Source of the DNA: Siphonodentalium dalli
Lineage: Eukaryota; Mollusca; Scaphopoda; Gadilida; Siphonodentaliidae
NCBI GenBank assembly: GCA_032622095.1
Contig: CP136066.1
Coordinates: forward strand, 231,264,961-231,328,960
Length of the DNA: 64,000 nt
Direction of reading: 5' to 3'
The notes beneath the pieces were generated by a model that was given only the letters and a program-made list of their open reading frames with translations, did no database searches and had not been told where the DNA came from. Position 1 is the stretch's first letter; every line of letters starts with the position of its first letter. A program made the translations under genes and the position numbers. Of the stretch, positions 6,375-48,500 are shown piece after piece.

Positions 6375-6525
6375 ATGAAAGTGTACATTCTCATGGCAAT
6401 GTTGACGGCATGCGCCTGTGAAGTCAATGAATATGGCTTCAAATATGTCAAAAGGATATCGCCATCAGATCTTCAGGAGTTCATTGTGTCACCTGAAGTC
6501 ACTACGGTGTACTATTATACACGAG
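6375..6525 (+). CDS. TXNDC16: TXNDC16 coding exon 1: start codon and signal peptide
   Basis: Residues 1-50. The ATG at 6375 is chosen because it begins a typical signal peptide: Lys2, then a hydrophobic run VYILMAMLTACAC, then the polar EVNEYG. A TTG-initiated extension upstream would spoil it. A plausible splice acceptor (ttctcatttcag, ending 6332) lies 42 bp upstream, so this may be the second transcribed exon, with a 5' UTR exon elsewhere. The donor is at 6526 (GTGAG), phase 1. The exon ends in TTVYYYTR, the first beta strand of the N-terminal thioredoxin-like domain. Confidence 0.82.
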
Positions 6526-9500
6526 GTGAGCGTAACATTCAAGACTGAATATAGTGTGTCTAACCCATAGAGAGCCCCATACAGACTGGAGCAGACGACA
6601 CTCCGTAGTGCATGCTTCAATCTGTTTGAGGCTCCCTGTGGGTTAAACATTAAACTTTCTCAGTGAGGTTTGAGATGGATGTCTTAGATTTCTCACCAAG
6701 CCTGAGTTTAGTGTGTCTACATTTGTATAATGAGGTTCCCAGAAGGTGAAGTTAGTGATGCTACCCTGTGCAGTGGGCTAACATCACTAAATTCACCCTC
6801 TGGGGAGCTCATTCTGCAAATGACAGACACATTAACTCAGACTTGATTTTGCAATAACTTAAAACAGAATAACTTTTAACAATCTGGATTATTCTAGAAT
6901 ATCCCAACAATTGCAATATTCCTGCTTATTCCAGTTTTCAAATATTCTGTGATGTTCATGTTTATTCTATTCAAATTTTATACCATTTTATTCTATTTTA
7001 TACAGTAATGCACTATACATTCGACCCCTTAACCACAGCAGAATTATGGGTAACTTTTTAGGATTTAGTCGGAAATATGGCTTGTTGCCATTCATCGGAA
7101 AGCTCTCACTGAGAGCTTTCCGATGAATGGCAACTAAATCCTGAAAAGTTACCCATAATTCTGCTGTGGTTAAAGAGTCGATTACTTAGGGCATTACTCT
7201 ACCAGTATAGAATAATTTCTGGACAGGATAGCATCGTTGTATTCCAAATTCATTACCTTAAAATCTCTCTCTCAAATCTTCATATAAGGGGAATTTAACA
7301 TTAAAAGGGAACTTCATCCTCAATGATTTTTGGTTTGATCAACCATTGTGTCATATTGCATAATCCAACCCTTATTCCATTCAATAAACCCAATCTATAA
7401 ATTGTGGTGTCAAACATTCTTTTAATAACAGGATATAGTGCAAGGTTACCTTTTACTTCCGGTTTGTCGTCTCTTTACATTCCATACGCTACTTCTCAAA
7501 ATACTACAGCTTGCATTATTTTTCCAACAAACTATAATGAATGAAGAGTTTGAAAAGTTATGTCATTATACATATACGCCATTAAATACACCAAAGAGTC
7601 TTTATTTATCTGGGACTACATTGCATTTATTTATGCGGGCAAACAGTGCATAGTTATTAAAATGTCATTGCATGCCTTATAGAAGCCGATATTAGTTTCC
7701 CGTCCCATTTGTTGAATTAAGTATGTTTTGTCAAGGTTTTGGATCATGTAATAAATAGAATCTACAGCTCGTCCCCATTTTATAGTGGAATACATGTATA
7801 CAAAACTCTTCCAGTAAATTTGGTCTGGACCTCGCCAAAGACTCAGTTCAGACCTAATTTACTGGACTTGGTTTTGCAAATATCGCTATAAACAGGGACT
7901 CGAAGATCATCTATATACATGTATGCAAGAAGGTTATAATATATTACATTCAAGACTACTTCCATGGAAACTAGTATAAATGTCTTGTAGTTCTTGAATG
8001 GATTTATGCAAAATGTGCCTTTATGGATAGGCATGCATCCTGAATCAATTAGCATACCTAAATCAATACCCTGCACCAGCTTGCACCATACCGTTAAACA
8101 TCACCTGCACACAATCACTTGTAAATACACTTGTAAAGACACTTGTAAAGGTGCTCCAGACACTTAATAATGTGTATTCCTCAATGGTTTTATTGTTTGT
8201 GGGCCATTGTATCTTGAGTGCCATGTGTTTGGACTACACGTATGTGAAAGGCAGTGCATAAAATTTTAGGATTCACCTTAACCTACAGTAATGTCCTAAA
8301 TATGGGTAACTTTATAGGATTTAGTCGGAAATATGGCTTATTGCCATTCATCGGAAAGCTCTCACTGAGTTATATACATAGAATGATAACCACCCTATCA
8401 CTGAGTTATATACATAGAATGATAACCACCCTATCACTGAGTTATATACATAGAATGATAACCACCCTATCACTGAGTTATATACATAGAATGATAACCA
8501 CCCTATCACTGAGTTATATACATAGAATGATAACCACCCTATCCGCCAGATTGAATATTAATCTTTACTTTCTTCTTTCTAGCTATCCCAAGATTAAAGC
8601 AGTTCTTTGCAGAATATGAGAAGGCTGCCCAGTTCCTGAATGGTTATAAGCTGCACTTGGCTATGGTGAGATTATGATTAGGGTTAGAGTTAGGGTTAGG
8701 GAATATGAGAAGGCTGCCCAGTTCCTGAATGGTTATAAGCTGCACTTGGCTATGGTGAGATTATGGTTAGGGTTAGGGTTAGGGAATATGAGAAGGCTGC
8801 CCAGTTCCTGAATGGTTATAAGCTGCACTTGGCTATGGTGAGATTATGATTAGGGTTAGAGTTAGGGTTAGGGAATATGAGAAGGCTGCCCAGTTCCTGA
8901 ATGGTTATAAGCTGCACTTGGCTATGGTGAGATTATGGTTAGGGTTAGGGTTAGGGAATATGAGAAGGCTGCCCAGTTCCTGAATGGTTATAAGCTGGAC
9001 TTGGCTATGGTGAGATTATGGTAGGGTTAGGGTTAGGGAATATGAGAAGGCTGCCCAGTTCCTGAATGGTTATAAGCTGGACTTGGCTATGGTGAGATTA
9101 TGGTTAGGGTTAGTGTTAGGGAATATGAGAAGGCTGCCCAGTTCCTGAATGGTTATAAGCTGGACTTGGCTATGGTGAGATTACATGTTTTTCAAAGATA
9201 CATAATCCGATTTAACCCTTTGAGTGCCAGGTCCGATTTTTTACAATTTTAATAAATTTTTTTAAATCTAAAAAAAAACCAAAAAAAACAACAATTTTTT
9301 AGGGCCGATTTTACAGACCGTAAATTAGGGCCGATGAGATCGGCCCCTGGCACTGAAAGGGTTAATGCCCCTAAATTATTATTTCTTTGGTTTCCATGGT
9401 AAAAAATATTTGAATTGAGTCGAGGAACCCAACTGTCAAAACTCAATGTTATCAGATTTGCGATTTTTCACCACCTGGAATATTTGGCGGCCTGGCAAAA

Positions 9501-12500
9501 ATTCTGCTGACTTCTTCCAGAAATATTACAAACATGCGTGGATGCCGTTACAAGAGGTAATGCAAGGTTATGGCTCCATGTACTATCAGTGCATCAGTGG
9601 CGATCGCAAGGTCATGGCTCCATGTACTATCAGTATATCAGTGGCGATCGCAAGGTCATGGATCCATGTACTATCAGTGCATCAGTGGCGATCGCAAGGT
9701 CATGGATCCATGTACTATCAGTGCATCAGTGGCGATCGCAAGGTCATGGATCCATGTACTATCAGTGCATCAGTGGCAATCGCAAGGTCATGGCTCCATG
9801 TACTATCAGTGCATCAGTGGCAATCGCAAGGTCATGGCTCCATGTACTATCAGTATATCAGTGGCGATCGCAAGGTCATGGCTCCATGTACTATCAGTAT
9901 ATCAGTGGCGATCGCAAGGTCATGGCTCTATGTACTATCAGTGCATCAGTGGCGATCGCAAGGTCATGGATCCATGTACTATCAGTGCATCAGTGGCGAT
10001 CGCAAGGTCATGGATCCATGTACTATCAGTGCATCAGTGGCAATCGCAAGGTCATGGCTCCATGTACTATCAGTATATCAGTGGCGATCGCAAGGTCATG
10101 GATCCATGTACTATCAGTGCATCAGTGGCGATCGCAAGGTCATGGATCCATGTACTATCAGTGCATCAGTGGCAATCGCAAGGTCATGGCTCCATGTACT
10201 ATCAGTGCATCAGTGGCAATCGCAAGGTCATGGCTCCATGTACTATCAGTATATCAGTGGCGATCGCAAGGTCATGGCTCCATGTACTATCAGTGCATCA
10301 GTGGCGATCGCAAGGTCATGGATCCATGTACTATCAGTGCATCAGTGGCAATCGCAAGGTCATGGCTCCATGTACTATCAGTGCATCAGTGGCAATCGCA
10401 AGGTCATGGCTCCATGTACTATCAGTATATCAGTGGCGATCGCAAGGTCATGGCTCCATGTACTATCAGTGCATCAGTGGCGATCGCAAGGTCATGGATC
10501 CATGTACTATCAGTATATCAGTGGCGATCGCAAGGTCATGGCTCCATGTACTATCAGTATATCAGTGGCAATCGCAAGGTCATGGCTCCATGTACTATCA
10601 GTGCATCAGTGGCGATCGCAAGGTCATGGATCCATGTACTATCAGTGCATCAGTGGCGATCGCAAGGTCATGGATCCATGTACTATCAGTATATCAGTGG
10701 CAATCGCAAGGTCATGGATTCATGTACTATCAGTATATCAGTGGCGATCGCAAGGTCATGGCTCCATGTACTATCAGTATATCAGTGGCGATCGCAAGGT
10801 CATGGCTCCATGTACTATCAGTGCATCAGTGGCGATCGCAAGGTCATGGATCCATGTACTATCAGTGCATCAGTGGCGATCGCAAGGTCATGGCTCCATG
10901 TACTATCAGTATATCAGTGGCAATTGCAAGGTCATGGCTCCATGTACTATCAGTATATCAGTGGCAATCGCAAGGTCATCGCTCCATGTATTATCAGTGC
11001 ATCAGTGGCGATCGCAAGGTCATGGCTCCATGTACTATCAGTGCATCAGTGGCGATCGCAAGGTCATCGCTCCATGTATTATCAGTGCATCAGTGGCGAT
11101 CGCAAATTAATTCAGAATGAAAATTATTGCTATCAACAAGAACATGGTATGATGTGTTAGTTGATGTGTGGATACATACAAATACTTATTTACTAATTAG
11201 CAATCGTGTTTTATTTATGCAAGTAAACCTGTTATATGGCACCATGCTGGTTACACATGGAAATACTATGTATTTAACCCTTTCAGTGCCAGGTCCGATT
11301 TTTGTATCAACCCATATACCCTGTGCCAATGCATTCTCTTATATATGCGAGTCGACCATAGGTCGCCTCGCATATATAAGAGAATGCATTGGCTTAACAA
11401 TTTTTTTGTTTTTTTTGTTTTTTTACAATTTTTTACAATTTTAATATATTTTATTATATTCTTTAACAGACTTATTGTGTAGGTTTAGGGCCGATAATAT
11501 CGGCCCCTGGCACTCAAAGGGTTAAGCACAGTAAACCTGTTATATGGCACCGTGCTGGTTACACATGGAAATACTATGTATTTAAGTGTGATAATAAAGT
11601 TTCATCCTGATAAATGCAAAGCGATGACAGTTGGAGACACAAGAGATATTCAATACACAATGATGAATCAAGGAAATAGACAAGCAATAACAGAAACCAA
11701 ACTAGAGAAAGACATTGGAGTGGAGATTGACAGCAAACTTAAATTCGAAGAACATATCAGCAATAAAATCAATAAAGCAAACAGCACTTTTGGAATTATT
11801 AGAAGATCATACAAGAACATGAATGAGAAGATATTCAAAACAATCTACACCACTATGGTCAGAACCAAACTAGAATACGCCCAATCTGTATGGCACCCAA
11901 ACTCAAAGGAACAGATCAAAAATATCGAAAAAGTACAGTAGAGAGCCACCAAACAAATTCCGGGAATGAAAGGATTGAAATATGATGAAAGATTGAAGAA
12001 ATTACAGCTACCAACTCTCTCATTCAGACGAGACAGAGGAGACCTCATTGAAACATATAAATTGACACATGCGGTCTATAAAGAAGGTGAAAAAAAACTT
12101 ATCCCAATGAGAGCAGATATGGTGAAGAGAGGAGAGGGAAGAGGGCATGACTACATAATCTACCATCAATCACATAACAGTAAACAAAGAGCCAGCACCC
12201 TTACTTTCAGAATAGTAAACAACGAGCCAGCACCCTTACTTTCAGAATAGTAAACAACGAGCCAGCACCCTTCCTTTCAGAATAGTAAACACCTGGAATG
12301 CCTTACCATCAGATGTAGTATATGCAGATACGGTTAATTAATTTAAAAATAGCCTTGATAAATTTCTTGAAAAAAAGCAGAAAACGATACATATACGACG
12401 CACCAATAATGGAAATGATAACTCAAGAAGAGCTGACAAAAGAGGCCAAGTCTGCTGTCAGGAACAACCTTAAGTAACCTTAAGTAAGTACTGTCACCCA

Positions 12501-21500: not shown

Positions 21501-24500
21501 TTTTCAGGATTTAGTCGGAAATATGGCTTGTTGCCATTCATCGGAAAGCTCTCACTGAGACCTTTCCAATGAATGGCAATAAGCCATATTTCCGACTAAA
21601 TCCTGAAAAGTTACCCATAATTCTGCTGTGGTTAAGGAGTCAGTTATTTAGGGCATTACTGTAAGTAACCTGACCCCTCCAGCACCACTGTATTTTATCT
21701 GTTGTATTTATCCATGCTGAACACTCATACTATATTTGATATGTTGTATATTCCAGGAGTGGACATATATTCATGAAGCTCAAAACGGATACTGTATTTG
21801 ATCTAAATTCAATTATGTCAACAATTTTACAGTAAGTAACAATAACAAGCAAATAAATTTGGTAAAAATGTTCAACAGTTGGAAATTTCAAACCTGATAA
21901 AATATTTTTACACTATATATAGGTAGAAAGTATTCTCATTGTTTCAACCAGTAATGGTGTTTTTAGACCAACATTGGGCCTGTTTTTGTCTGAAATGGGC
22001 ACATCAGTTGGACAATCGATGATTAGGGGGTGCTGGAAAGCTTGAGATACCATGCAATTGGAAAATAGCAAACCTTGAGGGGTGCAAATGAAATTTGATA
22101 AACCTGAGAGTCGGTTTGGTTCAGGGATTGGGGGGGGGGGGCGTGCTGCAGTTGGGACTTTCAAGGTGGACCCCAAATGGGTAACCTCTAACCTCTAACG
22201 ATCCATATAAGCATAATAAGCATACCCGTATGCTTATTAATTAACAAGCTGATGTGCCCGACTTCGTTATTTCTTTGTGATCGCCTCTGTCTGGGGAGAA
22301 TATACAGCATCTGGTCTTGAATGTTGAAAAGTATTCGGCGAAAGAAAAAAACTATTCGATCGGTCAAGAAACATGCCTATATGAACAAGGTCAAGATCAA
22401 GGACATGGTCGCACGTGAAATTGGACCCGCCCATATTGTTCTGGGGATCAAAGTAGGCCTATTGAGTTTGATCGGTCGAGCAGTTTTCAACTCTATTACA
22501 CACACACACACACACACATACATACATACAAACAGACAGACAGAAGTTCCAAAATTTATAATAGATTATTGGAAAAATTGCCGCCCTGTATGGTGCTTAT
22601 TTGGGTCTGTATAGTTGCTGCCCTGTATCATGCTTATTTGGGTCTGTATAGTTGCTGCCCTGTATGGTTACTTATTCATCCTTAATATGTCTTTAAATCT
22701 CAGATGTTATGTTTTATAATTATCTAAAGAGACCAGTCATTTTCATTAACATTGTAGATTACTGAAAAAAGTTTCAAAATATTAACTTTTGTCTACAAAA
22801 GCCAAGTGAAATTAAATAATTATTTAGTTTACTCTCACATTTTTTTTTCCGTTTTCCAGACTGGCCTTGATAAATGAAGTTCCCATCATCCAAACAGAAG
22901 AAAAACTGAAAGAATTGCAAGATAAAAATAAAGGTGTTAAGGACATTATATTCTCATACCAGAAAGCTGTCGGAACATTTGGTAAGACTCTTTGTATAGT
23001 ATATAACCCATAGAGAGCCCCACATAGACTGGAGCAGACGGCACTCTGTAGTGCATGCTTCCATCTGTGTGAGGCTCCCTGTGGGTTAAACATTAAACTT
23101 TATCAGTGAGGTTTGAGATGGATGTCTTACATTACTGACCAAGCCTGAGTTTAGTGTGTATAAACCCATAGAGAGCCCCACATAGACTGGAGCAGACGGC
23201 ACTCTGTAGTGCATGCTTCCATCTGTGTGAGGCTCCCTGTGGGTTAAACATTAAAGTGCATTGGGTTTGAGATGGAAGTCTCACAATAGTGTGCCTGTCA
23301 TTTACAGAATGAGGTCCCCAGGGGGTGAATTTAGTGATGCTATCCCACACTGCTGGCTAGTATCACCAAACTCACCCTCTGGGGACCTCATTCTGCTTAG
23401 GGCTCATCTTCAAGTTGCTAACCCGTACCATACTAAACATACGAACACCAACTTTTCTACCTAAAAACTCAAAGAATTGCAGGATGCAAATAAAAGGTGT
23501 AAATGAAATTATATTCTCATACCAGAAAGATGTCGGAACATTTGGTAAAGATTGTGAAATTGTTTTATTGGTAACCAATATGTCCTAAGTGGGTGTTTGA
23601 CCTGGTAACACATCATGTAGGGTTAGCGAAAATCGCACCTAGCATCCCGGGATGACAGTAAAGGGCCATAACAAAATGCTGGCTGATGGCTTGAAAGCTT
23701 TTAGATATGTCAAATTATGATAAGCTGAAATAAAAATTGACTGAAACCAATTAGTCATATACATTTAATCAGAGAGTGAAGTTGGTACCAAATGTATGAA
23801 TGAGAAAGAGACACGAGAAAGAAGAGGGAATCTGCAAAGCATATTAGTTAGTTAGTTAGTTAGCAACCTCTTATTATACCCCCCGCAACGAGTTGTGGGG
23901 GGGGGGTATACTGGTATCAGCTTGTCCGTCCGTCTGTCTGTCAAGCCGTCTGTGGACACAATGGACACAATTTTGTCCGGCTTTTTTCTCAGTCGTTTTA
24001 TGATAATTTTCCGTGAAACTTGGCACGAACTTGACATCAACCACCATGGGAACCTGTGCACCTGCGATTATGACGTCTGTAAGACTTTTTTTGGTGGAGT
24101 TATCCCCCCTTTTTTTACTTAGAATTTTTTTTGCAACATGTATAATTTTGTCCGAGCTTTCATTCCTACATTTTTAGGTAAATATCTTTTAAACTTGGCA
24201 CAGATATTTAGTACCATGGAAACCTGTGCACCTGCGTTTATGACGTCTGTCCGACATTTTTTGGTGGAGTTATCCCCCTTTTTCGACTTGGAAATTTGTT
24301 CGCAACATGCATAATTTTGTCTGAGCTTTTATTCAGTCAATAAATTTAGGATTAGAGTTAGTGGTTAGGGTTAGGGGGTTAAGGGTTAGGGTTACCTGTT
24401 GACATAATTTCAGTGGCAAATATATGGTAATGGCTACTTCATTCGAATAACATTTTGAATACGGGGGGTATTACTTAGTCCCATCCGGGACAAGCCCATC

Positions 24501-27500
24501 TCTGTTATTGTAACTAAGCAGCCTATTATTGTAACTAAGCAGTCTGTTATTGTAACTAAGCAGCCTGTTATTGTAACTAAGCAGCCTATTATTGTAACTA
24601 AGCAGTCTGTTATTGTAACTAAGCAGCCTGTTATTGTAACTAAGCAGCCTATTATTGTAACTAAGCAGTCTGTTATTGTAACTAAGCAGCCTGTTATTGT
24701 AACTAAGCAGCCTATTATTGTAACTAAGCAGCCTATTATTGTAACTAAGCAGCCTATTATTGTAACTAATCAGTCTGTTATTGTAACTAAGCAGCCTCTT
24801 GTTGTAACTAAGCAGTCTGTTATTGTAACTAAGCAGCCTATTATTGTAATAAGCAGCCTGTTATTGTAACTAAGCAGTCTATTATTGTAACTAAGCAGTC
24901 TGTTATTGTAACTAAGCAGCCTATTATTGTAATAAGCAGCCTGTTATTGTAACTAAGCAGTCTATTATTGTAACTAAGCAGTCTGTTATTGTAACTAAGC
25001 AGCCTATTATTGTAACTAATCAGTCTGTTATTGTAACTAAGCAGCCTCTTGTTGTAACTAAGCAGTCTTTTATTGTAACTAAGCAGCCTATTATTGTAAT
25101 AAGCAGCCTGTTATTGTAACTAAGCAGCCTATTATTGTAATAAGCAGCCTGTTATTGTAACTAAGCAGTCTATTATTGTAACTAAGCAGTCTGTTATTGT
25201 AACTAAGCAGTCTGTTATTGTAACTAAGCAGTCTGTTATTGTAACTAAGCAGCCTATTATTGTAACTAAGCAGCCTCTTGTTGTAACTAAGCAGCCTATT
25301 ATTGTAACTAAGCAGCTTATTATTGTAACTAAGCAGCCTGTTATTGTAACTAAGCAGTCTGTTATTGTAACTAAGCAGTCTGTTATTGTAACTAAGCAGC
25401 CTGTAATCTTTCTATCTTTTCTTTCTTCAGAGCACAGAATTTTTGCTGAAATTGCATTTGCTTATAAGCAACAGTTCCAGTTTGCTCTCACCACACAATG
25501 GAATGCAACTAACTCTATTGTGTAAGTATGTAGATAATATATCTGTAATGGCTACATTGCCAAATAAAGGCTCCCAAAAGGAACCTGTTTCTGCTAGTAT
25601 AATAATAAAACACAAAAAGTAGTGCCTTTACCTCTAGTGTTGAGAAAGGTGTCAAGTTTGTAGGTTTTTCTTAGGTTTTTTAAAACAGATTTTTATCATA
25701 ACATAAAGATGCTTATTATCTCCTTCTATGGACACCACTCTTTCATTGGAATATGTATTTTGAAGTAATCTCGATTCCATGAACGACAACTCACGAAAAA
25801 CCTCAATTCCATGAACGACAACTCACGAAAAACCTCGATTCCATGAACGACAACTCACGAAAAACCTTGATTCCACGAACGACAACTCTGACAAACCTCG
25901 ATTCCATGAACGACAACTCACGAAAAACCTCAATTCCATGAACGACAACTCACGAAAAACCTCAATTCCATGAACGACAACTCACGAAAAACCTCGATTC
26001 CATGAACAACAACTCACGAAAAACCTTGATTCCACGAACGACAACTCTGACAAACCTCGATTCCATGACCGACAACTCACGAAAAACCTCAATTCCATGA
26101 ACGACAACTCACGAAAAACCTCAATTCCATGAACGACAACTCACGAAAAACCTCGATTCCACGAACGACAACTCACGAAAAACCTTGATTCCACGAACGA
26201 CAACTCTGACAAACCTCGATTCCATGAACGACAACTCACGAAAAACCTCAATTCCATGAACGACAACTCACGAAAAACCTCAATTCCATGAACGACAACT
26301 CACGAAAAACCTCGATTCCATGAACGACAACTCACGAAAAACCTTGATTCCACGAACGACAACTCTGACAAACCTCGATTCCATGAACGACAACTCACGA
26401 CAAACCTCGATTCCATGAACGACAACTCACGAAAAACCTCAATTCCATGAACGACAACTCACGAAAAACCTCGATTCCATGAATGACAACTCACGAAAAA
26501 CCTTGATTCCACGAACGACAACTCTGACAAACCTCGATTCCATGAACGACAACTCACGAAAAACCTCAATTCCATGAACGACAACTCACGAAAAACCTCA
26601 ATTCCATGAACGACAACTCACGAAAAACCTCGATTCCATGAACGACAACTCACGAAAAACCTTGATTCCACAAACGACAACTCTGACAAACCTCGATTCC
26701 ATGAACGACAACTCACGAAAAACCTTGATTTCATGAATGACAACTCATAAAAAACCTCGATTCCACGAACGACAACTCATGAAAAACATCGATTCCACGA
26801 ACGACAATTCACAAAATACCTCGACTCAATGAACAACAACTCACAAAAAACCTCGATTCCATGAACGACAACTCATGAAAAACCTCGATTCCACAAACGA
26901 CAACTCACTCTATTCCACGAACGACAACTCATGAAAAACCTCTATTCCACGAACGACAACTCACAAAAACTTCGATTCCATGAACGACAACTCACGAAAA
27001 ACCTCTATTCCACGAACGACAACTCACGAAAAACCTCTATTCCACGAACGACAACTCACGAAAAACCTCGATTCCACGAACGACAACTCACAAAATACCT
27101 CGACTCAATGAACAACAACTCACAAAAAACCTTGACTCAATGAACAACAACTCACAAAAAACCTCGATTCCATGAACGACAACTCATGAAAAACCTTGAT
27201 TCCACGAACGACAACTCACAAAAAACCTTGATACTTTCACTTTATTGTTTTATTCTGATTCAGGAACAACTTTATTAAAAAGATTTGTCCGATGTGGGTT
27301 ATGTTCTGTCATTTGCAGGGTCCCCAGATGGTGAATTTAGTAATGCTACCCTGCATAGCCGGCTAGCATCACCAAATTCACCCTCTGGGGATCTCATTCT
27401 GCATGGCCTCATCTGCTATGAGAAACATAAACTCAGATTGAAGTTCCCAAATGGTGAATATTCCGATGTGCACCCATTAGGTGTTTTTTACATTAATAAA

Positions 27501-30500
27501 GTGTTTTTTTATTCTGATTCAGGAACAACTTTATTAAAAAGAAGCAGAATTGTGCATTGTGGGTAATGTTCTGTAAAGAGCCACATGACGGACACTGTGA
27601 GACCTCTCGATATAAAAACTCGTGGGATATCGTCAACTTATCACTGTATCTCAAAGTGCTCTCTAGGCCTGTAATGGTGAGTATATATAGAATTACTGGA
27701 GTTACGGTCCTTGTCGACTTAGAATTTGCCAATTATTTTAGTTTCCAGCAGGGGAGGGTAGTAAAAAATTTGCAGGAAGGTATGCCAGGGTGGTTGGTGG
27801 CTCGAGGGGGGGGAAACATGTTTTTTACACGCTCATGCAAATATTTTACTAAAGACCTTTTGTGCCCTAAAATGACATTTGTAAGGGGGGGGGGTCTGGA
27901 AAAAATATAGGGCCCAAAAAGTTGTTTTCCGACCCCGAGGGACCCACCACCCCATTTGTGCAAAAAAATTCCTCAAAATTTTGGGGACCCACCCCCCTTT
28001 CTCATGTTTTTATAAAAATTTCGGAGTTTTTTTTAGCCGTTCATCGATAACTGTGTGAACTGCCTTTCAATACCAATCCACTATCCTTTTTTGGTGCAAA
28101 CTCTTGCTGTGTACCATTAAGACTCAAGCAATAACATGCTTAATTGGTAAAGACAGATCAGAAAAACAAACTGTATTTCCAGGTGTTTCCTGGTGTTTTC
28201 CGTATCTGACAACAATAATAAAGCATTGTGTAGGTACACTATATGTCACAAATCACCCTAGACCCCATTATAGCCTTAATATATCGAGTGTGTTGTGTCT
28301 GACAGAACACTGGCCAGTATAAATAGTGGTAAACAGGTCAGGGGTTCCACAATTATTTGTGCATGACCAAAGAACTCTTTAGTCTTATTCACCAATGTGG
28401 GATGGGGAAGGGAAATTGTTTTTGGTTAGAGACAGAGAAACAACAAGATATTAGCATCACCACCCTAATTAAATGCATGACACACTATCAAAGGAAGACA
28501 CACCTGTGTATTGTTAGGAAGAAATTCAGAACGTCAATCAGGATTCGCACTGCCACTTTCCAAATTTGCCAATGGCAAAAATAATTCACATTTGGCAAAA
28601 AATATTTTCATTTAGCAAAAGTTAGCCAAGTCATTTTTTAATTCCACTATAAAGTTGAAAAATATTGGTTGGTCAATTAATACCATTCATTTTAGGAAAC
28701 TATTACCATACTGACCCGCGTTTAGGCCCAGGGGGCCTTTGTTTTATTTGAGCTCAAAAATCCAAGTGGGCTTAAACTCGGATATGACCCTTTGCAGACC
28801 AAAAATCCTAAGAAATCGGGACATTAAAACGTATGAAAGCCGATCTAATGCCGATTATTTGGGAAATATACCCGGTTTCCAGATTAAGTAAAGGTAAGTA
28901 TTTATAAGTTACTTTGAGAAAGTTATTTTTCAATTAAATGTGAATATTAAAATATTATAATAACACTTTAAGTCTTGTAGTTTTATTGCCCAAAATTCCC
29001 ATGTTAAAATGACACTATTATGTAAGCGGCAGTGTGGGTTATGGGTAAATCCCTTATCTTATAGTCTATAAGACGTCTATAGTTTATATCAATGTTCAGA
29101 CTTAATCCGATTAGGAAAACAATAAAATTATATTAGTGGTGTTTTATATGGTTTTTTCGGAATAGTTAACGCCTCCATTAAGATTCAGTTAACCCTTTAC
29201 CCAACAAACCGGCCAAAACCGGCCAAATAAAGCTTCAACAGCCTAAAATATCTTTGGTCTGTCTCAATAGAACCATACAAATATGGATATCATTGGAACC
29301 GGCTCCTTGACCACATTGTGATAGTTACAGTTATGCCCTGTGCCAATGCATTCTCTTATATATGCGAGTCGACCATAGGTCGCCTCGCATATATAAGAGA
29401 ATGCATTGGCCTAAAAAAACTTTTTACCATTTTTTCTTACATTCTTTAACAATTTTATAATTTTTAATGTGTTAAGCCAATGCATTCTCTTATATATGCG
29501 AGGCGACCTATGGTCGACTCGCATATATAAGAGAATGCATTGGCACAGGGCCCTTCTGTTGGGTAAAGGGTTAATCTGGTAACATTACTATCGATGGGTG
29601 GAGGGATTACCAATATTAGGTGTGATGGTGGTGCATACAATAGCTAATCCTCGTGTGATGTTCCTTTCTGATAAAGCAATGTTATTGTTCGGTGATTAGT
29701 TTATTATGGTATGATAAACCACAATAGAGATGTGAGTATAATTAACTGACTGCTTTCCTATTGATATCAAACGTCGTTCATACAGCGAGTGTTGAAACAA
29801 AACTCAATGAAGGTTGCAGAAAATTATACTATCAGGGATAACATTTGGCAAATTCTAATAGAATTTCGGTCCAGCTCGGACCCTGATGTCAATCTACTTT
29901 TGAGAGATGCCCACGTTCGCACAATATGCAATGGAGATTGAACATTTCAACCCTCAAAATTAGCCATGCTGTCAATCAATATAGAAGACAAGCTGGTAGG
30001 AGGTGTCCTCTTCATCAAATTGCTACGTTGTAATATAATATCTTGCCCCAGAAAGCTACAGATGCAAATTGGCCTTTGACTTAAATTTAATAATAATTTC
30101 AAAAGACGAGACAATATAGAAACACGTGCATGTGGTCAAATAGAGGTTCATAGTTATGGTTTTTCATGCAAAGTCAACAGGGCACCGATCTCTGAATAAT
30201 ATTTTTACGAACTTCATGCATGTATATAATTATGCGGACAAAAGGCTAATTAAAGTCAGAATAATCAAGTTCTGGTATTCTTCAGCATAAACAACAAATG
30301 GTGTTTATTTTATAATTATTGGTTTATTTAATATATGGTATGAATAACGAGCATGTGTGTGAAAATTTTAACGTCTGGAAATTTCAGGGTGTTTTTGGAC
30401 GTTTGTTCGTAAAGTATATGAACGCTCTTTATTGTTACATGCTATAGTTTTGGCTGACACTGGTACATGATAAAAGGAAACAATTACTCAATTTGTATCT

Positions 30501-33500
30501 ACATGACCGAACATGCAAAGCTGACAAAGTTCCGTACATGTACGTGTTTCAAACCGCAAAAACACTAAAAATCTGAGATACATGCAGCTCTGCTCATTAG
30601 TTTGCGTATTCTACCCCTACAACCCCCAGAATGTTAGTTAACGGAATTATTTTGTCAAAAAACTATTTTTGTTATCGTCATAATTCTAATTGTATATGTC
30701 TAACAGACCCATTTCGCCAAGAAAATTCAAAATCGAGCAGGTAATATTTTTATTATTATGATATAAAAAAATAGCGGAAGTGACTGATTTGTGCGATCAC
30801 ATGACTACAATACGGTCACATAGCCGATAAGCTGCATCGACGCGGTTAGTTTACCTGATTTACTTACCAGTGACAGCAGTGGGCGGAGCTTGAAATAATT
30901 CCTCCAATCGTGTAACGAGTTGATAAATTACATATAAAATATCGCAGTCTTTAAAGCGATAAAATTCGTGTGAAATGAGATTAAATTATGCTGAAATGCA
31001 ATGAGCGGAATATAGTGTGAAACTAAATTGAAATGTTTCTGAAAGAATACAAGTTGGGCATTCTAGCTTCTTCTTCGTTGTATTGTACAAATTTCGGAAG
31101 CTAGTTTATACACCAGTACATGCCGTTGTGCGCTATAGTAGTACAATTAAACACAAATGGATGTGATTAAAAGGTGGCGGTTATATTATACTAGTGCATT
31201 ATCATGATGGCTCATATTCATCATAATAATGTTCCTCTCTGTTTCTTCACACGAAGCCTTTTGTGTGGAGAAGTGCACAACTGCGGACATGCTTGCTAAA
31301 ATCCTTCCAGTCAAGATACGATCACATAGTACGTAAACAAAAGAATTAACTCGATTACACAACAGACTATTGAAACTACATTAATTATTAATTTTCGGCT
31401 TATTTATTATCCTATCGGAATGGGACTTAGGTCATTTTAATCGCAACAGGGAAGGCTTTCCATTTGCGGGATAGCTTCACTAAATTAACCCTCTGGGGAC
31501 CTCATTCTGTGAATAACAGGCACACTAAACTCAGGCTATATGGTTATTAGCTCAACTTTACTTTGTAAAGTTTGAGCTATTGCCATGGCTTTGTCGTCCG
31601 TGTGTGCGTGTATGCCTGATTCGTCAACAATCAACAAGGTTCTACCTTTGGATTTTACTCTTTCCATGACTAAATCCTTTGGCACGGGCTACAAGTCGTA
31701 GCTTTTGTCAGATCTTCATGAAATTTGTCATGGATGTCAACAATGACATGTAGATGGGAACGAGTCGTTTTGGGGTCATTCGGCCAAAAAACATGGCCAC
31801 CAGCAGCCATCTTGGATTTTACTCTTTGCATGAATAAATCCTTTGGCACAGGCTACAGGTCGTACCTTTGGTCAGATCATTATGAGATTTGTCATGGCTG
31901 TTGACATTGACATGTGGATGGCCAGTGGCCATCTTGGATTTCAAAATTCAATCTATTAGCACGGGCTACAGGTCGTACTGTTCGTCTGATCATCATGAAA
32001 TTTGTCATGGATGTTAATATTGACATGTAGATGGGAACGAGTAATTTTGGGGTCATTCGACCAAAAACATGACCACCAGCAGCCATTTTGGATTTTACTC
32101 TTTACATGACTAAATCCTTTGGCATGGGCTACAAGTCGTATCTTTGGTCTTTTTGGGGTCATTCGGCAAAAAAACATGGCTGCCAGTGGCCATCTTGGAT
32201 TTTACTCTTTGCATAACTAGGCCTTTCAACTTTCCACATTCCTAATCACTCAATTGACTGTAACACATGAAATTATTCCCTTTCCAAGTTGAGCTACAGT
32301 GTCATTGACACTTTCATATTTAAGTACTAGTGAGTAGTGACTAATTCATTTTTATTTTTTTAGTACGACATGTCAGACAGTGGCAAGTCTCCCTTTGAAG
32401 AGCAGTTTATGTCGATACTTTATATGTATTATCGTGAGGATAGCATGAGAGAGGTGAAGGACAGCGCTTCTGCATTGGCACCAGAGCTGCGAGGTTCTGT
32501 GGGAGTGGTCACCGTCAACGTGTAAGTCTATAGAAGTCAACTATTTCTCTCTGTATTTTTATACCAATGTAGGTAAGTGATTGTTTGAGACGTCTGTCCG
32601 GGTAAACGAAAATTACACCTAGCTCTCCGGAATGACAATAACAAGTCAGAATGGAGCACTGGCTAACGAACCTTACGGCCTTTCCATTTGTCAACATAAG
32701 TAAAGTGAAAAAAATAATGACTTACAACCTATCCGTCATATAACATAACTGTACGGATGCCATAAGAAAGGGGAGGATGTCTGCTAGGCATATTAAAGAA
32801 GATTTGAGGCTTAATACAATGATGACCAAGGCCCAATTTCTCGCAGATAAATTGCTCCTCGTTCTAATGACATGAATTTTGAGGTGGATCCTGGAGCGGT
32901 TTAACGGAATAATGAAAATATATTAGAATGTACCCCACAAAAATAAGATTTTATTTTATGCCAAAATTTGAATTTAGACATTTTTTGAAATTACTCCAAA
33001 TGAGTTGAAAAGTTGCCAAAATGTTTGGATAAGACCACCATCAGTTGCAGATTGCTGGCTATGTGGCAAACTAAGCGCATGTCACATTACGTTTCAACTC
33101 AGGTGTTGTGGGAGTCAAAAGAAGTCAAGTATTTCTCTCTATATTTACACAGAACAACAATAGTTTGTTAACCCTTTGAGTGCCAGGACCGATTTTTGTA
33201 TCAACCCATATACCCTGTGCCAATGCATTCTCTTATATATGCGAGTCGACCATAGGTCGCCTCGCATATATAAGAGAATGCATTGGCCTAACAATTTTTC
33301 ATCATTTGTTATTATTTTTTACAATTTTTTACAATTTTAATAATTTTTTAAAAATCTAAAAAAAATGTTTTTTATTTTTTTAGGGACGATTTTACAGACC
33401 GTAAATTAGGGCCGATGAGATCGGCCGCTGGCACTGAAAGGGTTAATGGGTTTGTTGATACAGCATGGGTGTTATTGTGGAAGGATATATGAGAGACACA

Positions 33501-39500: not shown

Positions 39501-42500
39501 ATGGATCCCCAAACAAATAGATGAATGTACTGATGAGTGTCGTCTGCTCACTGCTCTGTGGGGCTCACTGTGGGTTATATGAATAAATAATTTGTTTTTT
39601 TCTTATAAAGTATACAGCTATTTGTTGAGATCTCTTTTGTAATTGCATGCATCCCACATGGATCCCCAAACAAATAGACGAATGTACTGATGAGTGTCGT
39701 CTGCTCACTGCTCTGTGTGGCTCACTGTGGGTTGAAATTGTTTTTCAGACATTACCTGTGTTTATGGCTGAACGATTTAACCAAGTCAACATTGAACATT
39801 TTGTGAAGACAGCCATCGTTAGGGGTACAACCGCCCTCATTGATAAAGAACCAGTCGTGGATGTTGAAGAAGGTAAGTCTGCAAGCCTGCAAATAGTGTG
39901 CCTGTCATTTGCAGAATGAGGTCCCCAGAGGGTGAATTTAATGATGCTACCCCGCACAGCGGGCTAGCATCACCACATTTACCCTCTGGAGACCTTATTC
40001 TGCTTAGGTCTCATCTTCTGGGAAGTATCTACAGTATCAAATTAACATTGTTTTTAGTTTTCCCTTCTGGGAAGTTTCTATACCCCCTAATTTGCAGCAG
40101 ATAAAATCCATAATCGAGGTGCCCAATGGGTGAACATCACCAACTTCAACTGGAGAACTTCAAACTGATCCTGGGTCTACCATAGCAGTTGAGGGCCTAA
40201 GCAGAAAACCATCAAGCCTTGAAATAGTGTGTCTGTCATTTGCAGAATGAGGTTCCCAGAGGGTGAATTTAGTGATGCTATGCGGGATAGCGTCGCTAAA
40301 TTCACCCTCTGGGGACCTCATTCTGCAAATGACAGACACACTATTTTCAGGCTTGTAAGTCTGTTGAAGGGTTCTTTGCAGAATCTTGTTGAAACCGTCT
40401 CATAACCCGTGTGCGCTTCTGATGATCATCGTAGTCCACTTTTATTTTCTAGCTTACCCAACTTTATAATTGTGACATATTTCGGTCTGGTCATAGTAAT
40501 TCTTTCTCTAAAATAGTTCACTTTGCGCTCTCACGCTGACTGGCGGCATTCAAAGATCAGAATTTCTGTACATATCATATATTACAGGTATCACAAAACT
40601 GGACTTATCATATTTATTATACAAAAAACTGTTTATCTGTGTCTGTTGTTTAACCCTTTGAGTGCCAGGTTGATTTTTGTATCAACCCATATACCCTGTG
40701 CCAATGCATTCTCTTATATATGCGAGTCGACCATTGAATATTTTATTGCACACATAATAAGGAATCAGTTGTGGATGTTGAGGATAGTAGCCTACCGCTA
40801 TTCTCAAAGTAATTGACCAGAAAAACGGGGTGATACCCTGGTCATGACCGCGGTGATACCGGTAATAAACGGTAGCGGTATCGAGACGGTCATGGCGTGG
40901 AGTTACGGTATTGGGCGATAATGATACTGTGGTCTTTTAGCGGGCACCACATTAATTTTGTTGAATACCGCGGTGATTTTCATTGAACTCTTTTAGTGGA
41001 GGTATTTACTCACACATACTTGTTCACGTTAACAAGCGGTATCAGTACCGCGGTATTGGAGGATACCGCGGTATAGTACCGCCATATTAACGGGGCGAAA
41101 AAAAATGAACAAATGGTGAAAAAAATGGCTAAATTAATTTCCTCTCAAATATGTCCATCTGGACATGGTGGCGATTATAAACACACCAGCAGTCATCGGT
41201 CTAATAACATCACGCTCAGCTGACATCCGTACAACAAAAGCTTCGGCACCTCGTGTATGTTACACGATCCAATGAGCTTGGAGCAATTAGTAATAGGTGT
41301 ACATTGGTGTTGATTTCATGCATTGTCAATGGCAGATGCTTTGTGTTGTAATAAACACAACTTTTGAGTGGAGATAAGGGAAAGATGCTTAATCACTTTA
41401 AGTGACGGAGGTTTTTGTTGCGAGTCAAGTTTCCAAAATGAATTTCTTGCATTTGCAGTTTGATCCCTATTAATTAATTCCAACTGTTTACAAAACCGAT
41501 CGATCTGTCCAACTAGCCATGATTAAAATTATCATAATTACGTAGTCACCAGGGTATACTTACTAGTTTCCCGCAAATTGAACAAATATGCACCAGGTAC
41601 GCATAGGCATAGATAAAACCATGCACAAACTCGCGAATAAAGAAAACTTGAGGTTGCGTTCAGATATCATATTGCATATTTTCGCTATATGTTAATACAC
41701 CGCAATTTGTTTTTATTTGCGATGGTCTAAAAACTTTTATTGTTTGTGGAATCGCTTGGCAGGATGTTATTGCTCATATTACATCGTTATTGTTTTCTTT
41801 TGTCAATAAAATGTAATATACTTTCAATTTATCTAAAAAAAAATCCTGAACAAGTGACTAAAGTAAATTCAAAGTGGCTAAAAAAATTGCCATTTGGCTA
41901 AAATAATGGCTAACGGAATTTCTCGGCCAGGGTGAACACTGTCGGCGAGAGCTTTCTGATGAATGGCAACAAGCCATATTTCCGACTAAATCCTGAAAAG
42001 TTACCCATAATTCTGCTGTGGTTAAGGAGTTGATTATTTAGAGCATTACTGTAAGTCTGTTGAACAAGTCTGTAAATAGTGTGTCTGTCATTAGCAAAAT
42101 GAGATCCCCATAGGTTGAATTTGGTGATGCTATCCTGCATGGTGGGCTAGCATTACCACATTCACCCTCGGGGGACCCAATCTGCTATGGCCTCATCTTC
42201 CGGGAAGTATCTATAGTGTCAAATTAACATTGATTTTAGTTTCTTTTTCCCTTCTGGGAAGTTTATATATCCCGTATTTTGCAGAAGATAAAATGCTTAA
42301 TCGAGATGACTAATGGGTGAACATCACCAACTTATACTGGGGAACTTCAATCTGATCATAGGTTTCTCATGGTAGTGGAGGCCTAAGTAGAATGAGGTCC
42401 ACAGATGGGGAATTTGGTGACGCTATCCCACAGCTAGCATCATCAAATTCACCCTCTGGGGACCTAATTCTGCTTAGGCCTCATTTTCTCTGGAAAGTTT

Positions 42501-45500
42501 CTTATCAAATTTCTATAGAATCTATCTATTTTTAGTTAAGTTTCTCTATATCCCCAAATTGGCAGAGGACACGTTGCATAACCCAAATGGTTAATATTGT
42601 GATATACACCCATTGGGAACCTCGATTATGCAATGTGTCTGTCAATTTGGGGATATAGAGAAATAAACTAAAAAGAAATAGAATCTATGTGAAGAAGTTC
42701 TATGGAAATTTGATAATCCAGAGAAGATGAGGCCTAGGCAGAATGAGGGAATAGGGATGCAGCTATGCGGGATACCATCACTAAATTCACCCTCTGTGGA
42801 CCTCATTCTGTAAATGACAGACACACTAAACTCGGGCATGTAGTTTGGATTTGTAATTTGGATAAACATACAGATAGATGTCGTTATTCAATGTTATGTA
42901 CAGAATGTGTTTTCTTGTAGAATGTCGTTATTCAATGTTATGTACAGAATGTGTTTTCTTGTAGAATGTAGGTTGTGGTGAAAAGTCATATTGGACTTGA
43001 TGCTGTGTTGTACAAGAAAAACACATACTGTACACAACATTGTATTATAACTTTATACTATTTTATTCTTCTGTTCAAGTTGTGATATATTTCTTTTAGT
43101 TGAGAGCAATGATGATGAAATACTTGAAGGCATTATCAAACTGGAGAAGAAATTTGTTATCTCCCCTCAAATCATGCAATTGACGGACAAGTCATTCAAA
43201 GAGAGGACGTCACAAGATCAATTGACATTTGTCGTATTCTACTATCCTAGTGAGTATCTTATTATAACCCCCCCCCCCCCCCCCCCCCAATGGCGGAAGG
43301 AAATGGTGGAAATACCGGATTACATGCATTCAGGTCTGATATTTTTATCCTAGTGAATATCTTATTATACCCCCCCCCTAATTAATGAAGGAAATGGTGA
43401 GAATAACGGATTACATGCATCCCATCCGATCGTCCGTCTGGGGCAGATATTACTATCCTAGTGAGTATCTTATTATACCACCCCATGACAAAGGAAATGG
43501 TGTATATACTGGATTACATCCGTCCCATCCGATCTTCGGCCCGGGGCAGATATTATTATACTAGCAAGTACCGGTATCTTATTATACCCCCATGACAAAG
43601 GAAATGGTGTATATACTGGATTACATCCGTCCCATCCGATCTTCGGCCCGGGGCAGATATTATTATACTAGCGAGTACCGGTATCTTATTATACCCCCAT
43701 GACAAAGGAAATGGTGTATATACTGGATTACATCCGTCCCATCCGATCTTCGGCCCGGGGCAGATATTATTATACTAGCGAGTACCGGTATCTTATTATA
43801 CCCCCATGACAAAGGAAATGGTGTATATACTGGATTACATCCGTCCCATCCGATCTTCGGCCCGGGGCAGATATTATTATACTAGCGAGTACCGGTATCT
43901 TATTATACCCCCATGACAAAGGAAATGGTGTATATACTGGATTACATCCGTCCCATCCGATCTTCCGCCCAGGGCAGATATTATTATACTAGCGAGTACC
44001 GGTATCTTATTATACCCCCATGACCAGAGGAAATGGTGTCTATACTGGATTACATCCGTCCCATCCGATCTTCGGCCCGGGGCAGATATTATTATACTAG
44101 CAAGTACCGGTATCTTATTATACCACCCCATGACAAAGGAAATGGTGTATATACTGGATTACATCCGTCCCATCCGATCTTCGGCCCGGGGCAGATATTA
44201 TTATACTAGCGAGTACCGGTATCTTATTATACCACCCCATGACAAAGGAAATGGTGTATATACTGGATTACATCCGTCCGGGGCTGATATCTCTACCATC
44301 GGTTGTGGGTGTACTGCATACAGTGAGTAGCTTATTATACCCCCCCCCCCCCCCCATGACCAAAGGAAATGATATGTATACTGGATTACATGTTAGGGAC
44401 ATATCCAGGCCAGTTTTCATACTGTTAACCAGTTTGGGCGCCCAAATTCCAGGCGGCAAAAAAAAACATATTGGAATTTTTTTTTTCTCTCAATTCAGGT
44501 CCTAATTCATATCATAACAAGACACAAAACATTTATATATTTATATATATTAACATAAGACAAGACACAAAACATTTATATATTTATATATATTAACATA
44601 AGACAAGACACAAAACATTTATATATTTATATATATTAACATAAGACAAGACACAAAACATTTATATATTTATATATATTAACATAAGACAAGACACAAA
44701 ACATTTATATATTTATATATATTAACATAAGACAAGACACAAAACATTTATATATTTATATATATTAACATAAGACAAGACACAAAACATTTATATATAT
44801 TAACATAAGACATTTAAGTTTACAAAAAGATTTAAATATAACAGTTGGAATCATTCTGTAAAGTATGTCTGACTTTTTATTACATATCTATCAACATAAT
44901 TCACATGATCGCACGAGTTTCCAGGCGTGTGATAATTCTCAGAATCGCACTAGTGCAATCTGTCGACGGAACTATTTCATTCAGTGTTGTTAGACTTGTT
45001 CTCGCCGTTACTATTTGTACTTTTTCAATCACGACAATAAAGAAACAATAAGCGATCAATCGATGAGATGATTCATTCATGTAGTTTCATTTCAAGAATA
45101 TGTTTGTCGAGGCACAGAATATAATTTCAAATGCATCATTAAAGATGGGTCAAGGTCACTCGCGGATAGACGGGATCCCTGTCTGATTGTTGTGTTAACC
45201 CTAAAATGCCGTTAAAACTCAATTAAATTCACATTTTCTGTACCGGAGATGTACGATTTTGAGTCAACTTACTATGATACGGAGATATGTAATAAAAATA
45301 GAACAGCATGAGTGTCTGGATTTTGACAAATTATTGCGCTCGATTTGTTGGCGGAATTCGTTACCTCTCGTGCAGGACTGTGTCCCGCACTCGAGGTATC
45401 GCTCCGCCAACAAATCTCGTGCAATAATTTGTCAAAATCCAGACACTCATGCTGTTCTATTTTTATCTATATCTAACTTTCATCTGTGAAAACTTCAAAT

Positions 45501-48500
45501 AGTTTGAGTTCAGGTTTGTTATCATTCAGCCTTCGGATTTCAGTATTTCAATCAAATTCAAGTGAAATTACACAACATAGTACAGCAATTAGTAATAGGT
45601 GTACATTGGTGTTGATTTCATGCATTGTCAATGGCAGATGCTTTGTGTTGTAATAAACACAACTTTTGAGTGGAGATAAGGGAAAGATGCTTAATCACTT
45701 TAAGTGACGGAGGTTTTTGTTGCGAGTCAAGTTTCCAAAATGAATTTCTTGCATTTGCAGTTTGATCCCTATTAATTAATTCCAACTGTTTACAAAACCG
45801 ATCGATCTGTCCAACTAGCCATGATTAAAATTATCATAATTACGTAGTCACCAGGGTATACTTACTAGTTTCCCGCAAATTGAACAAATTGAACAAATAT
45901 GCACCAGGTACGCATAGGCATAGATAAAACCATGCACAAACTCGCGAATAAAGAAAACTAGAGGTTGCGTTCAGATATCATATTGCATATTTTCGCTATA
46001 TGTTAATACACCGCAATTTGTTTTTATTTGCGATGGTCTAAAAACTTTTATTGTTTGTGGAATCGCTTGGCAGGATGTTATTGCTCATATTACATCGTTA
46101 TTGTTTTCTTTTGTCAATAAAATGTAATATACTTTCAATTTATCTAAAAAACAATGACAATTTGATAAAATCAGCATGGTTATCAGGTGGGATCTCATAA
46201 TTTCAAATGAATAATTAACATAGATTAGTACTAATAGTAATTTCTATCTTAATAGACATTGTTTCCCTTACCAAATTTCCCTACCTTAATTTCTCATGAG
46301 TTTCTTCTGTGAAACTAAAAACACAATGGGGAAGGTTGTATTAATGAGTTTACAATGGAAATTAGCTTGAGTAATGCTATTTTTATGCATGAATTTTTAT
46401 AATCTTCATTGAGAGTTAACCTGACATCAATGTATACTCGCCCTCTAAGTTCTCTAAATGGGAGTGGGCTTATCTTAGAGGACCACCCAGGGGGGGTGAA
46501 AACAAAATTTTGCCGGGGTGGGTGGGTGGTCAAAGCAATTTTTTCCGCAACTAAAAAAAAAAATTCCTGCTTGTTTTTTAGTGTTTTGGCAATGAGTTGG
46601 GCTTCAAAACCAATTGAATGATTTACATTTGTTTATCAGTGATTATTTCCAGTATCTAAATATTTACCTATCTGTGTCATGTTTTAACCCTTTCATGACG
46701 GGAGCTTCCTGAATTTTTGTAAAAATCCTGTGCCAATGCATTCTCTTATATATGCCAGTCAACCATAGGTTGCCTCGCATATATAAGAGAATGCATTGGC
46801 CTACCAAATTTTATATTATTTTTTATAATTGTTAAAAAATGTAAGAAAAAATGTTAAAAAATTCTGAAAAAATGTAAGAAATAATGATAAAAAATGATAA
46901 AAATTGTCAAAGAATGTAAGAAAAAAATGATAAAAATTGATAAAGAATGTAAGAAAAAATGATATCGAAGAGGACCACCTCATGATTGTTTTAGCTTATC
47001 CTCAGGGTTGGGGTTTCTGACAGGTGTACAGTAATGCCCTAAATAATCGACTCCTTAACCACAGCAGAATTATAGGTAACTTTTCAGGATTTAGTCGGAA
47101 ATATGGCTTGTTGCCATTCATCAGAAAGCTCTCGGGGAGAGCTTTCCGGTGAATGGCAACAAGCCATATTTCCGACTAAATCCTGAAAAGTTACCCATAA
47201 TTATGCTGGGGTTGAGGGGTCGATTACTTAGGACATTACTGTATAAGGTAAGCGATCTAATGCTTTCATCGTTCATTTCCCATTGACAGCATGTACGAGG
47301 AGCCAGGCTTTATTGTGTGCATATAACGAGGTAGCGGAAGCCATTGGAGAGATGTCCACTCTGGCTTTAGTTAATTGTTATAAGTGGACTGACGTCTGCT
47401 CCGATGAATCCGTCTCTGTGTTTCCAACAGCGCGGTACTACAGGAACAGTCAAGCTAAGAAGTACACCGGACCACTACACACAGATAGTATAGTCAACAC
47501 TATCAAATTGTGAGTTTTTTTTTACTTTTAGTTCCTGTAGGGAGCCCCGTAGAGGTGGCAGCTTGTATTGCTGAGTGTCGTCTGCTCAGGTCTGTGAGGG
47601 GCTCCATAAGGGTAGTTTAACCCCTTTCATGACTGGAGCTTCCTGGATTTTTTTCTAAAACCCTGTGCCAATGTATTCTCTTATATATGCGAGGCTCATA
47701 CATTGGCCTTACACTATTTACCTTGACCTTGTAAGCCAGTGCATTCTCATATATATGCAAGGCACCATATTGGAGACTTGTATATATAAGAGAATGCACT
47801 GGCACAGTATCTTTAATGCTGCACCAGCGCAGCTCCCGTCATGAAAGGGTTAAAGTTTCCGACAGCACTGTACTACACGAACAGTCGAGCTAAGAAGGAC
47901 ACTGTGGAGTTATCCCCCTTTTTACATCCCCCTTTTTCCCCCAAGATGCATAATTTTGTTCGAGCTTTTATTCCTATAATTTTAAGTGTAAATTGTTTTT
48001 AGACTTTAATTAATACCATGGGAACCTGTGCACCTGCGATTATGATGTCCATCAGACATTTTTTGTGGCGTTATCCCCCGTTTTTATCTTTGAACATTTT
48101 ATACAGCGGGGGTATACCATATTATAGCATGACTCGCTATGTTACTGTGTACAAACATGCTATGTAATAACGAACCGAAGCCGGACTCGCTATGTTACTG
48201 TGTACAAACATGCTATGTAATAACGAACCAAAGCCGGACGCTTTGGGTCGTATATAGACTATATCTGATTTTGTGATGTCACCAATTATTATCTAATTTG
48301 TCGCACAGTAGATCGGTGGGCTTAAAGCATTAATGTTGTAATCGGAAAATCTTGTTACTGTGTCTTTCGATTACTGGTATTGCAAACGAGAATAATGAAT
48401 ATTGAATTACAATGCAAGTTTATTCGTTAGTTTACCTTTTATTGAGACAATTCATTCGACGAACCCAGGAAATATATTTGGAATCTTATTTGGAGGGAAT

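Follow-up and report, generated by a model that had tools for sequence, protein, structure and literature searches.

Direct, mostly head-to-tail copies of exon borders, chiefly of splice donors, in the introns of TXNDC16 and other genes of the scaphopod Siphonodentalium dalli

Why do pieces of a gene's own exons recur in the introns beside them? The question is raised by a window of 64,000 nucleotides from the scaphopod mollusc Siphonodentalium dalli (GenBank assembly GCA_032622095.1, contig CP136066.1, positions 231,264,961 to 231,328,960, forward strand; all positions below without a further label are those of this window), which holds the gene TXNDC16. An initial annotation, made from the letters of the window, had reported partial copies of seven TXNDC16 exons in the adjacent introns, always in the orientation of the gene, and had proposed a recurrent process that duplicates short segments spanning exon–intron borders. 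Here, we describe these copies, compare them with the local-repeat background and with 199 exons of other genes, and weigh the explanations. Such copies lie on the same strand, mostly head to tail, in many genes, are often recent, and are commoner at splice donors than at acceptors or at random points of introns. With a probability of roughly 0.7, we read them as tandem duplications ('mirages') across exon borders, mostly at donors, that run head to tail into the intron.

Each of the 13 TXNDC16 exons, extended by 30 bp per side, was compared on both strands with the surrounding 1.5 kb. Same-strand copies were found near seven exons or their borders (exons 2, 5, 7, 8, 10, 11, and 12; Table 1), while no inverted local copy was found for any of the 13 exons within that range, so that the uniform orientation reported earlier holds throughout. 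The copies did not arise by chance, because resampled sequence gave a match in 0 of 567 tiles. Partial exon copies are present where the initial annotation had placed them for exons 2, 5, 7, 10, 11, and 12 but not for exon 8, which ends at about 32521-32523 in the exon model tested against Pfam; what had been taken for an exon copy there consists of the donor and ~36 nt of intron. The description of the copied segments as spanning exon–intron borders is likewise correct in part: the donor is included at exons 2, 5, 10, and 11 and the acceptor at exon 7, the sole acceptor case among the TXNDC16 copies, but the exon 12 copy stems from the interior of that exon. The search returned no copy of a whole TXNDC16 exon.

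At exons 2 and 11, the copies form minisatellites that begin within the exon and cross the donor. The exon 2 unit is made up of 54 nt of exon, the donor GTGAGA, and TTAGGG-like intron, and GT is kept in all six downstream donors, whereas each exon 11 unit carries ~10 nt of exon and the donor GT has become GC in five of seven aligned copies. Within the exon 2 unit, the intronic portion (8666-8700, with the later units reaching 9183) consists mostly of TTAGGG-like hexamers of the telomere type. A further array, in which a 36-bp unit is repeated five times with a 100% match, occupies 8362-8543 and stops ~40 bp 5' of the exon 2 acceptor; exon 2 thus lies between two tandem arrays.

The other five copies are spaced from their parents and are themselves without another match in the sequence compared. 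The DNA between parent and copy is dispersed repeat for 91% of 477 bp at exon 5, 90% of 194 bp at exon 7, 73% at exon 10, and 85% at exon 12, which fits a tandem duplication into which dispersed repeats were later inserted. This is not proof of such a history, because dispersed repeat already makes up a mean of 58% of the intron baseline (64 window intervals, 45% of which reach at least 72%), and the gap of the exon 8 pair is just 37% dispersed repeat.

Local duplication is pervasive in the window, where tandem arrays take up 30.7% of the sequence, as compared with 10.2% in 31 gene regions totalling 173 kb. Of the 567 non-exon tiles of the window, 310 match nearby sequence directly and 165 in inverted orientation. 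The seven TXNDC16 exons alone therefore prove no special process, and with so high a background it is the direction and position of the copies, not their mere presence, that indicate one. A plain comparison of tiles, being dominated by dispersed repeats, was dropped as the sole control and replaced by unique, array-free tiles and by collapsing each array to one unit. Against unique, array-free intron (direct match in 14/269 tiles, inverted in 16/269), the contrast is sharper: exon copies are direct only.

The comparison with other genes used 199 exons located by profile matches, namely 153 from kinesin and CCT genes (111 of 123 kinesin and 42 of 53 CCT matches, after exclusion of long matches in a single frame, of what seem to be recent duplicates, and of a few more) and 46 from DEAD-box and myosin genes (27 of 53 and 19 of 85 matches, respectively, with short exons preferred; the myosin matches belong largely to one recent cluster on contig C4). 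They were handled as a first batch of 74 exons in 31 long pieces, a second of 79 exons in short pieces, and a last of the 46; in pieces L034-L158 the flanks extend for only 420 or 250 bp, and copies farther away are missed there. The exons represent four gene families, with several per gene, in one assembly, and so are not fully independent.

In the first batch, 15 of 74 exons had direct local copies and none had an inverted one (30 bp flanks). Of the 153 kinesin and CCT exons, 26 had direct copies that include 10 bp or more of exon (15 in arrays and 11 outside them), again with none inverted, and the last 46 exons gave four local matches, all direct, three of which hold at least 10 bp of exon. 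The total is 29 of 199 exons with such direct copies and 0 of 199 with an inverted local copy, the latter to be set against 16 of the 269 unique intron tiles (Fisher P 1.4e-4), and these counts support the idea of a process recurring beyond TXNDC16. The excess of exon copies lies in arrays, because outside arrays the rates for exons (11/153, 7%) and for unique intron tiles (14/269, 5%) are similar. TXNDC16, which was picked for its copies, has them at a higher rate (7/13) than the first batch (15/74; P 0.017). At one kinesin exon (piece L092, 774-859), the acceptor and both ends of the exon, but not its middle, recur ~250 bp downstream, which comes near to a whole-exon duplication.

The two kinds of border behave differently. 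As a null, we took the chance of a random point falling in an array once each array had been collapsed to one unit; the donor count covers the 187 of 199 exons with an assignable donor site and leaves out the other 12. With refined splice sites, 13 of 187 donors lie in arrays where 4.8 are expected (P 1.1e-3), as compared with 2 of 199 acceptors where 5.1 are expected, a deficit that is not significant (P 0.12); donors and acceptors differ from each other at P 2.8e-3. Border copies are thus commoner than those of random segments at donors and no commoner at acceptors. Because arrays exceed the intron background at donors and not at acceptors, the process, or its surviving part, would concern donors and not borders generally.

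The donor count was unchanged for Tandem Repeats Finder (TRF) score thresholds of 40-100, and the donor arrays are spread over six of nine contigs (C1, C2, C4, C6, C7, and C9). Among arrays with a self-match of at least 95%, 6 of 187 donors are found against 0.8 expected, and 0 of 199 acceptors; at a self-match of at least 90% the donors number 9 against 2.1 expected, which is 9 of the 13 donor arrays. When the ends of the profile matches were used as borders (153 exons), arrays covered 17 of 306 borders, namely 13 donors and 4 acceptors, where 8.3 would be expected, and the last 46 exons added two donors and no acceptor.

A motif scan of the arrays turned up donor arrays at unlisted exons (L009, L017, and L021). 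As seeking donors within arrays is biased, further exons were added by homology only: tblastn gave 17 hits, of which seven were set aside as copies of known exons and ten were new exons, and their inclusion brings the counts to 16/195 donors and 2/209 acceptors (P 4.7e-5 and 4.0e-4). Exons with copies may be slightly easier to find by homology; totals are given with and without the ten. The L021 exon stands outside the donor count and was removed from the background only. A 4.4-fold sense enrichment of donor-like motifs in background arrays was left unused, 7 of 16 coming from one AT-rich repeat, which occurs also in antisense (2/8); in the arrays of the window, such motifs were present in 1 of 35, without enrichment.

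In addition to the pervasive local matches, the high intron baseline, and the exon 8 gap described above, several results weigh against our interpretation. By match ends there are 15 donors to 4 acceptors in arrays, and the first batch has 12 of 148 borders in arrays but the second only 5 of 158 against 4.3 expected (P 0.43), which is no excess. The donor excess is concentrated in the first batch (8/74 exons, P 5e-4) and is modest in the later ones (7/125, expected 3.1, P 0.037). Array edges are mildly raised near donors, with 9 in the final 55 exonic bp as compared with 3, 5, 8, and 7 per 60-65 bp going into the intron. The automatic choice of splice sites missed donor arrays in L081 and L085 that are visible by eye, and on the other side the two acceptor arrays counted are those in L015 and L017, of which L017 seems misplaced by eye; acceptor-side arrays in L018 (~5 nt of exon) and L157, also seen by eye, went uncounted, so that the true acceptor number may be 3-4. 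The donor/acceptor asymmetry does recur in the later batches (7 donors to 0 acceptors by match ends in 125 exons, P 0.016), while in them the surplus relative to background, though present, is reduced.

In L017 (1239-3192), ~49 copies of a 40-bp unit reach up to the pyrimidine tract of a kinesin exon acceptor, with the exon itself not clearly included, and in L157 (40-320), within a myosin gene, units of 33-34 bp consist mostly of exon sequence starting CAGGT.

Inspection of the sequences by eye shows that a donor-array unit starts within the exon, takes in its final ~10 to 70 bases and the donor, and continues into the intron, with unit lengths of ~30-107 bp. In L031, a 34-bp unit recurs 34 more times after the kinesin exon, with GT in 33 of these copies, up to the end of the piece; in L033, a unit of 30-32 bp recurs 14 more times, with GT in 12; and at the CCT exon of L021 a 47-bp unit occurs about ten times, with GTAAGT in the copies displayed. 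One donor array, that of L150, is compound. In a set of 17 arrays, made up of those at TXNDC16 exons 2 and 11 and 15 from other genes, GT is kept in 82 of 96 downstream donor copies, with exceptions at TXNDC16 exon 11, as described above, and in the second L026 array, where GT is lost in 4 of 9. The donor letters have changed no more than their neighbours, with identities of 0.92 and 0.93 as compared with 0.84-1.00 at other positions. In L029, the exon-end unit forms a second cluster at 1522-1800, ~1.3 kb beyond the donor array (3102-3444), which gives the impression of a split or a copying of that array.

In the history that we favour, head-to-tail duplication would first extend ~30-110 bp of DNA lying across an exon border, mostly the one with the donor, into the intron. 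A single extra copy would then decay and be pushed off by the insertion of dispersed repeats, as may have happened at exons 5, 7, 10, and probably 12, while other duplications, as at exons 2 and 11, would expand as minisatellites, presumably through slippage or unequal exchange. The intact donor next to the exon is presumably the one used and the decoys are tolerated. Donors may be either preferentially duplicated or preferentially retained, and acceptor arrays may be removed since their decoys come first. A stronger version is possible, and we advance it only tentatively, in which splice donors are hotspots for new tandem duplications tied to transcription or to 5' splice-site recognition, with an asymmetry that is mutational and not only selective. 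R-loops, for example, or polymerase pausing at U1 sites, would in that case make the downstream border of an exon prone to duplication, some 7-8% of donors would head a tandem array, and up to ~34 intact donors would stand in a row.

A competing account, doubtful but conceivable, dispenses with any hotspot: minisatellites would be born uniformly, acceptor arrays would be purged because their decoys lie upstream and are transcribed before the true site, and donor arrays would be tolerated. It draws strength from the pervasive local repeats, from array edges in the flanking intron that are not much rarer than those at donors, and from the scarcity of acceptor arrays (2/199, with 0 of the 125 later-batch exons by match ends), but the acceptor deficit is not significant, and purifying selection cannot raise donors above a neutral rate that they exceed, young arrays even more so. 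It is unlikely that old duplications merely remain visible for longer at exons, where selection freezes one copy. The spaced TXNDC16 copies are indeed old (82-90% identical), and the exon 5 pair aligns better in its exon part than in its intron part; for arrays the idea is contradicted by a donor excess as large or larger at a self-match of at least 95%. Since purging alone cannot account for the excess at donors, nor unequal decay for the young arrays, it remains that duplication is more frequent in donor-side DNA or that the arrays formed there persist longer.

We consider it improbable, to about the same degree as unequal decay, that break repair pasted nearby border segments into existing intron sites without tandem duplication. 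The copies of exons 5, 7, 8, 10, and 12 do lie hundreds of bp from their sources, and 11 of the 153 sampled exons have copies outside TRF arrays, but pasting could proceed in either orientation and not one of 199 exons has an inverted copy, the separating DNA is largely dispersed repeat in four of the five pairs, and the arrays are head to tail by eye. Misassembly of repeat units is very unlikely: the possibility was raised for the lancelet repeats in the PGBD5 paper (PMC3902484), which argues against it, and here the copies often differ from one another or are separated by other sequence, and donor arrays occur on most of the contigs. A coding role for the copies as alternative exons is more improbable still. 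The retention of GT would suit it, as would unit lengths that are multiples of three in 9 of 19 donor arrays, except that this proportion is not above one third (P 0.15), that no TXNDC16 copy is a whole exon, and that translation continued beyond the exon 2 donor would reach an in-frame stop in no more than four codons.

Several known systems invite comparison. The 'mirages' of lancelets are known in globin, Adh3, troponin C, and PGBD5 genes (PMC3087553; PMC3902484 adds PGBD5 and troponin C), with units of 10-160 bp and with copies that are 81-100% identical in BflGb6 (PMC3087553). These two papers support the link to amphioxus that the initial annotation had raised. As in S. dalli, lancelet mirages are minisatellite-like repeats spanning exon–intron boundaries, their unit range overlaps with the ~30-107 bp found here, and splice signals are retained in many copies. 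They differ in that the published cases involve both borders, in a few genes, whereas here donors predominate over 199 sampled exons, acceptor cases (the exon 7 copy and the two counted automatically, of which one looks doubtful by eye) being rare beside donors; moreover, splicing and length instability were studied in lancelets, whereas the present repeats are known from the sequence of one assembly. Intron gain under the Rogers model (potato RdRp, vertebrate ATP2A1) is alike in that a short tandem genomic duplication copies splice signals, and in potato the duplication covers an intron–exon structure (PMC4974935); there, however, a new intron arises, whereas the duplications described here lie within existing introns, and no new intron came to light, though none was searched for. 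Ordinary intronic minisatellites share the head-to-tail units, the variable copy number, and the means of detection, but here the first unit overlaps coding sequence and a functional donor, and the frequency at donors is above the intron background.

In its form, as judged from the repeats themselves, the phenomenon matches the lancelet mirages. The literature that we found describes border-spanning minisatellites from lancelets only and single border-crossing tandem duplications elsewhere, for example in potato, and it contains no genome-wide count of donor- versus acceptor-spanning repeats, as judged by title or by the start of the abstract. A host outside the lancelets is thus probably new, and new as well are the genome-sampled rate and the donor bias. 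A host other than a lancelet fits an assembly of nine contigs and 2.2 Gb in which a profile search for the GFP family (PF01353) gave no match; the profiles of molluscan haemocyanin (PF14830) and of the annelid erythrocruorin linker (PF16915) likewise gave none, although such misses do not demonstrate that a family is absent.

The TXNDC16 model to which these copies refer was built from open frames joined at splice sites, followed by a Pfam test of the joined peptides. The peptide of exons 1-7 matches PF24508 (TXNDC16_N) at E 8e-17 over positions 3-105 of 105 and PF24509 (TXNDC16_2nd) at E 1.6e-18 over positions 4-120 of 120, and that of exons 8-13 matches the thioredoxin profile PF00085. The match of the latter peptide to PF24510 (TXNDC16_3rd) is weak, with 14 bits at a cut-off of 27, and PF24510 was without a match in the whole-genome profile search. 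On this evidence exons 1-7 as a set are well supported as predictions, while support is weaker for exons 9, 10, and 13 and for the precise boundaries of exon 12, whose real start probably lies some tens of bp more 5'.

Table 1. Positions of the modelled TXNDC16 exons that bear on the copies, and of the copies and arrays (open reading frame, ORF)
Feature	Positions	Strand	Evidence
Exon 1, protein start; no local copy	6375..6525	+	Splice/ORF scan; PF24508/PF24509 on joined exons
Exon 2; final 54 nt form array unit 1	8583..8665	+	Joined-peptide Pfam, copy search
Exon 2 array, seven units including the exon, spaced 82-89 bp	8612..9183	+	Copy search
Exon 5	22860..22981	+	PF24509 on exon 5 alone, E 3e-06
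Exon 5 end and donor, copy	23463..23548	+	Against 22901-22985, 89.5% over 86 bp
Exon 7 acceptor and exon start, copy upstream of the exon	27245..27309	+	Against 27504-27574, 83% over 71 columns
Exon 7	27523..27676	+	Splice/ORF scan; joined-peptide Pfam
Exon 8	32364..32523	+	Splice/ORF scan; PF24510 14 bits, below cut-off
Exon 8 donor and ~36 nt of intron, copy (not exon)	33108..33146	+	Against 32520-32558, 84%
Exon 10	39749..39872	+	Splice/ORF scan only; no domain match of its own
Exon 10 end and donor region, copy	40757..40789	+	Against 39843-39875, 82% over 33 bp
Exon 11	43100..43249	+	Splice/ORF scan
Exon 11 array, about nine units of ~107 bp, from ~10 nt before the donor	43240..~44352	+	Copy search
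Exon 12	47371..47509	+	Splice/ORF scan; PF00085 E 5e-08
Exon 12 internal piece, copy; dispersed repeat on its left side	47855..47902	+	Against 47420-47467, 87.5% over 48 bp

Two further observations concern the surroundings. Within the window, a 42-bp unit is repeated 150 times over 6.3 kb (57189-63490), and the array is open in two minus-strand frames of 2178 and 2145 amino acids. In the genome at large, C4 carries many similar myosin-head exons at over a dozen loci between ~158 and 292 Mb, which are dense at 274-276 Mb and from which it seems that myosin heavy chain genes have recently multiplied on a large scale.

Border-spanning repeats are a hazard for automatic gene annotation. If they are common in an animal unrelated to lancelets and biased towards donors, they would indicate that a mutational process acts on splice sites in general, would be a source from which new introns and altered exons could arise, and would offer natural experiments on how the spliceosome chooses among many identical donors.

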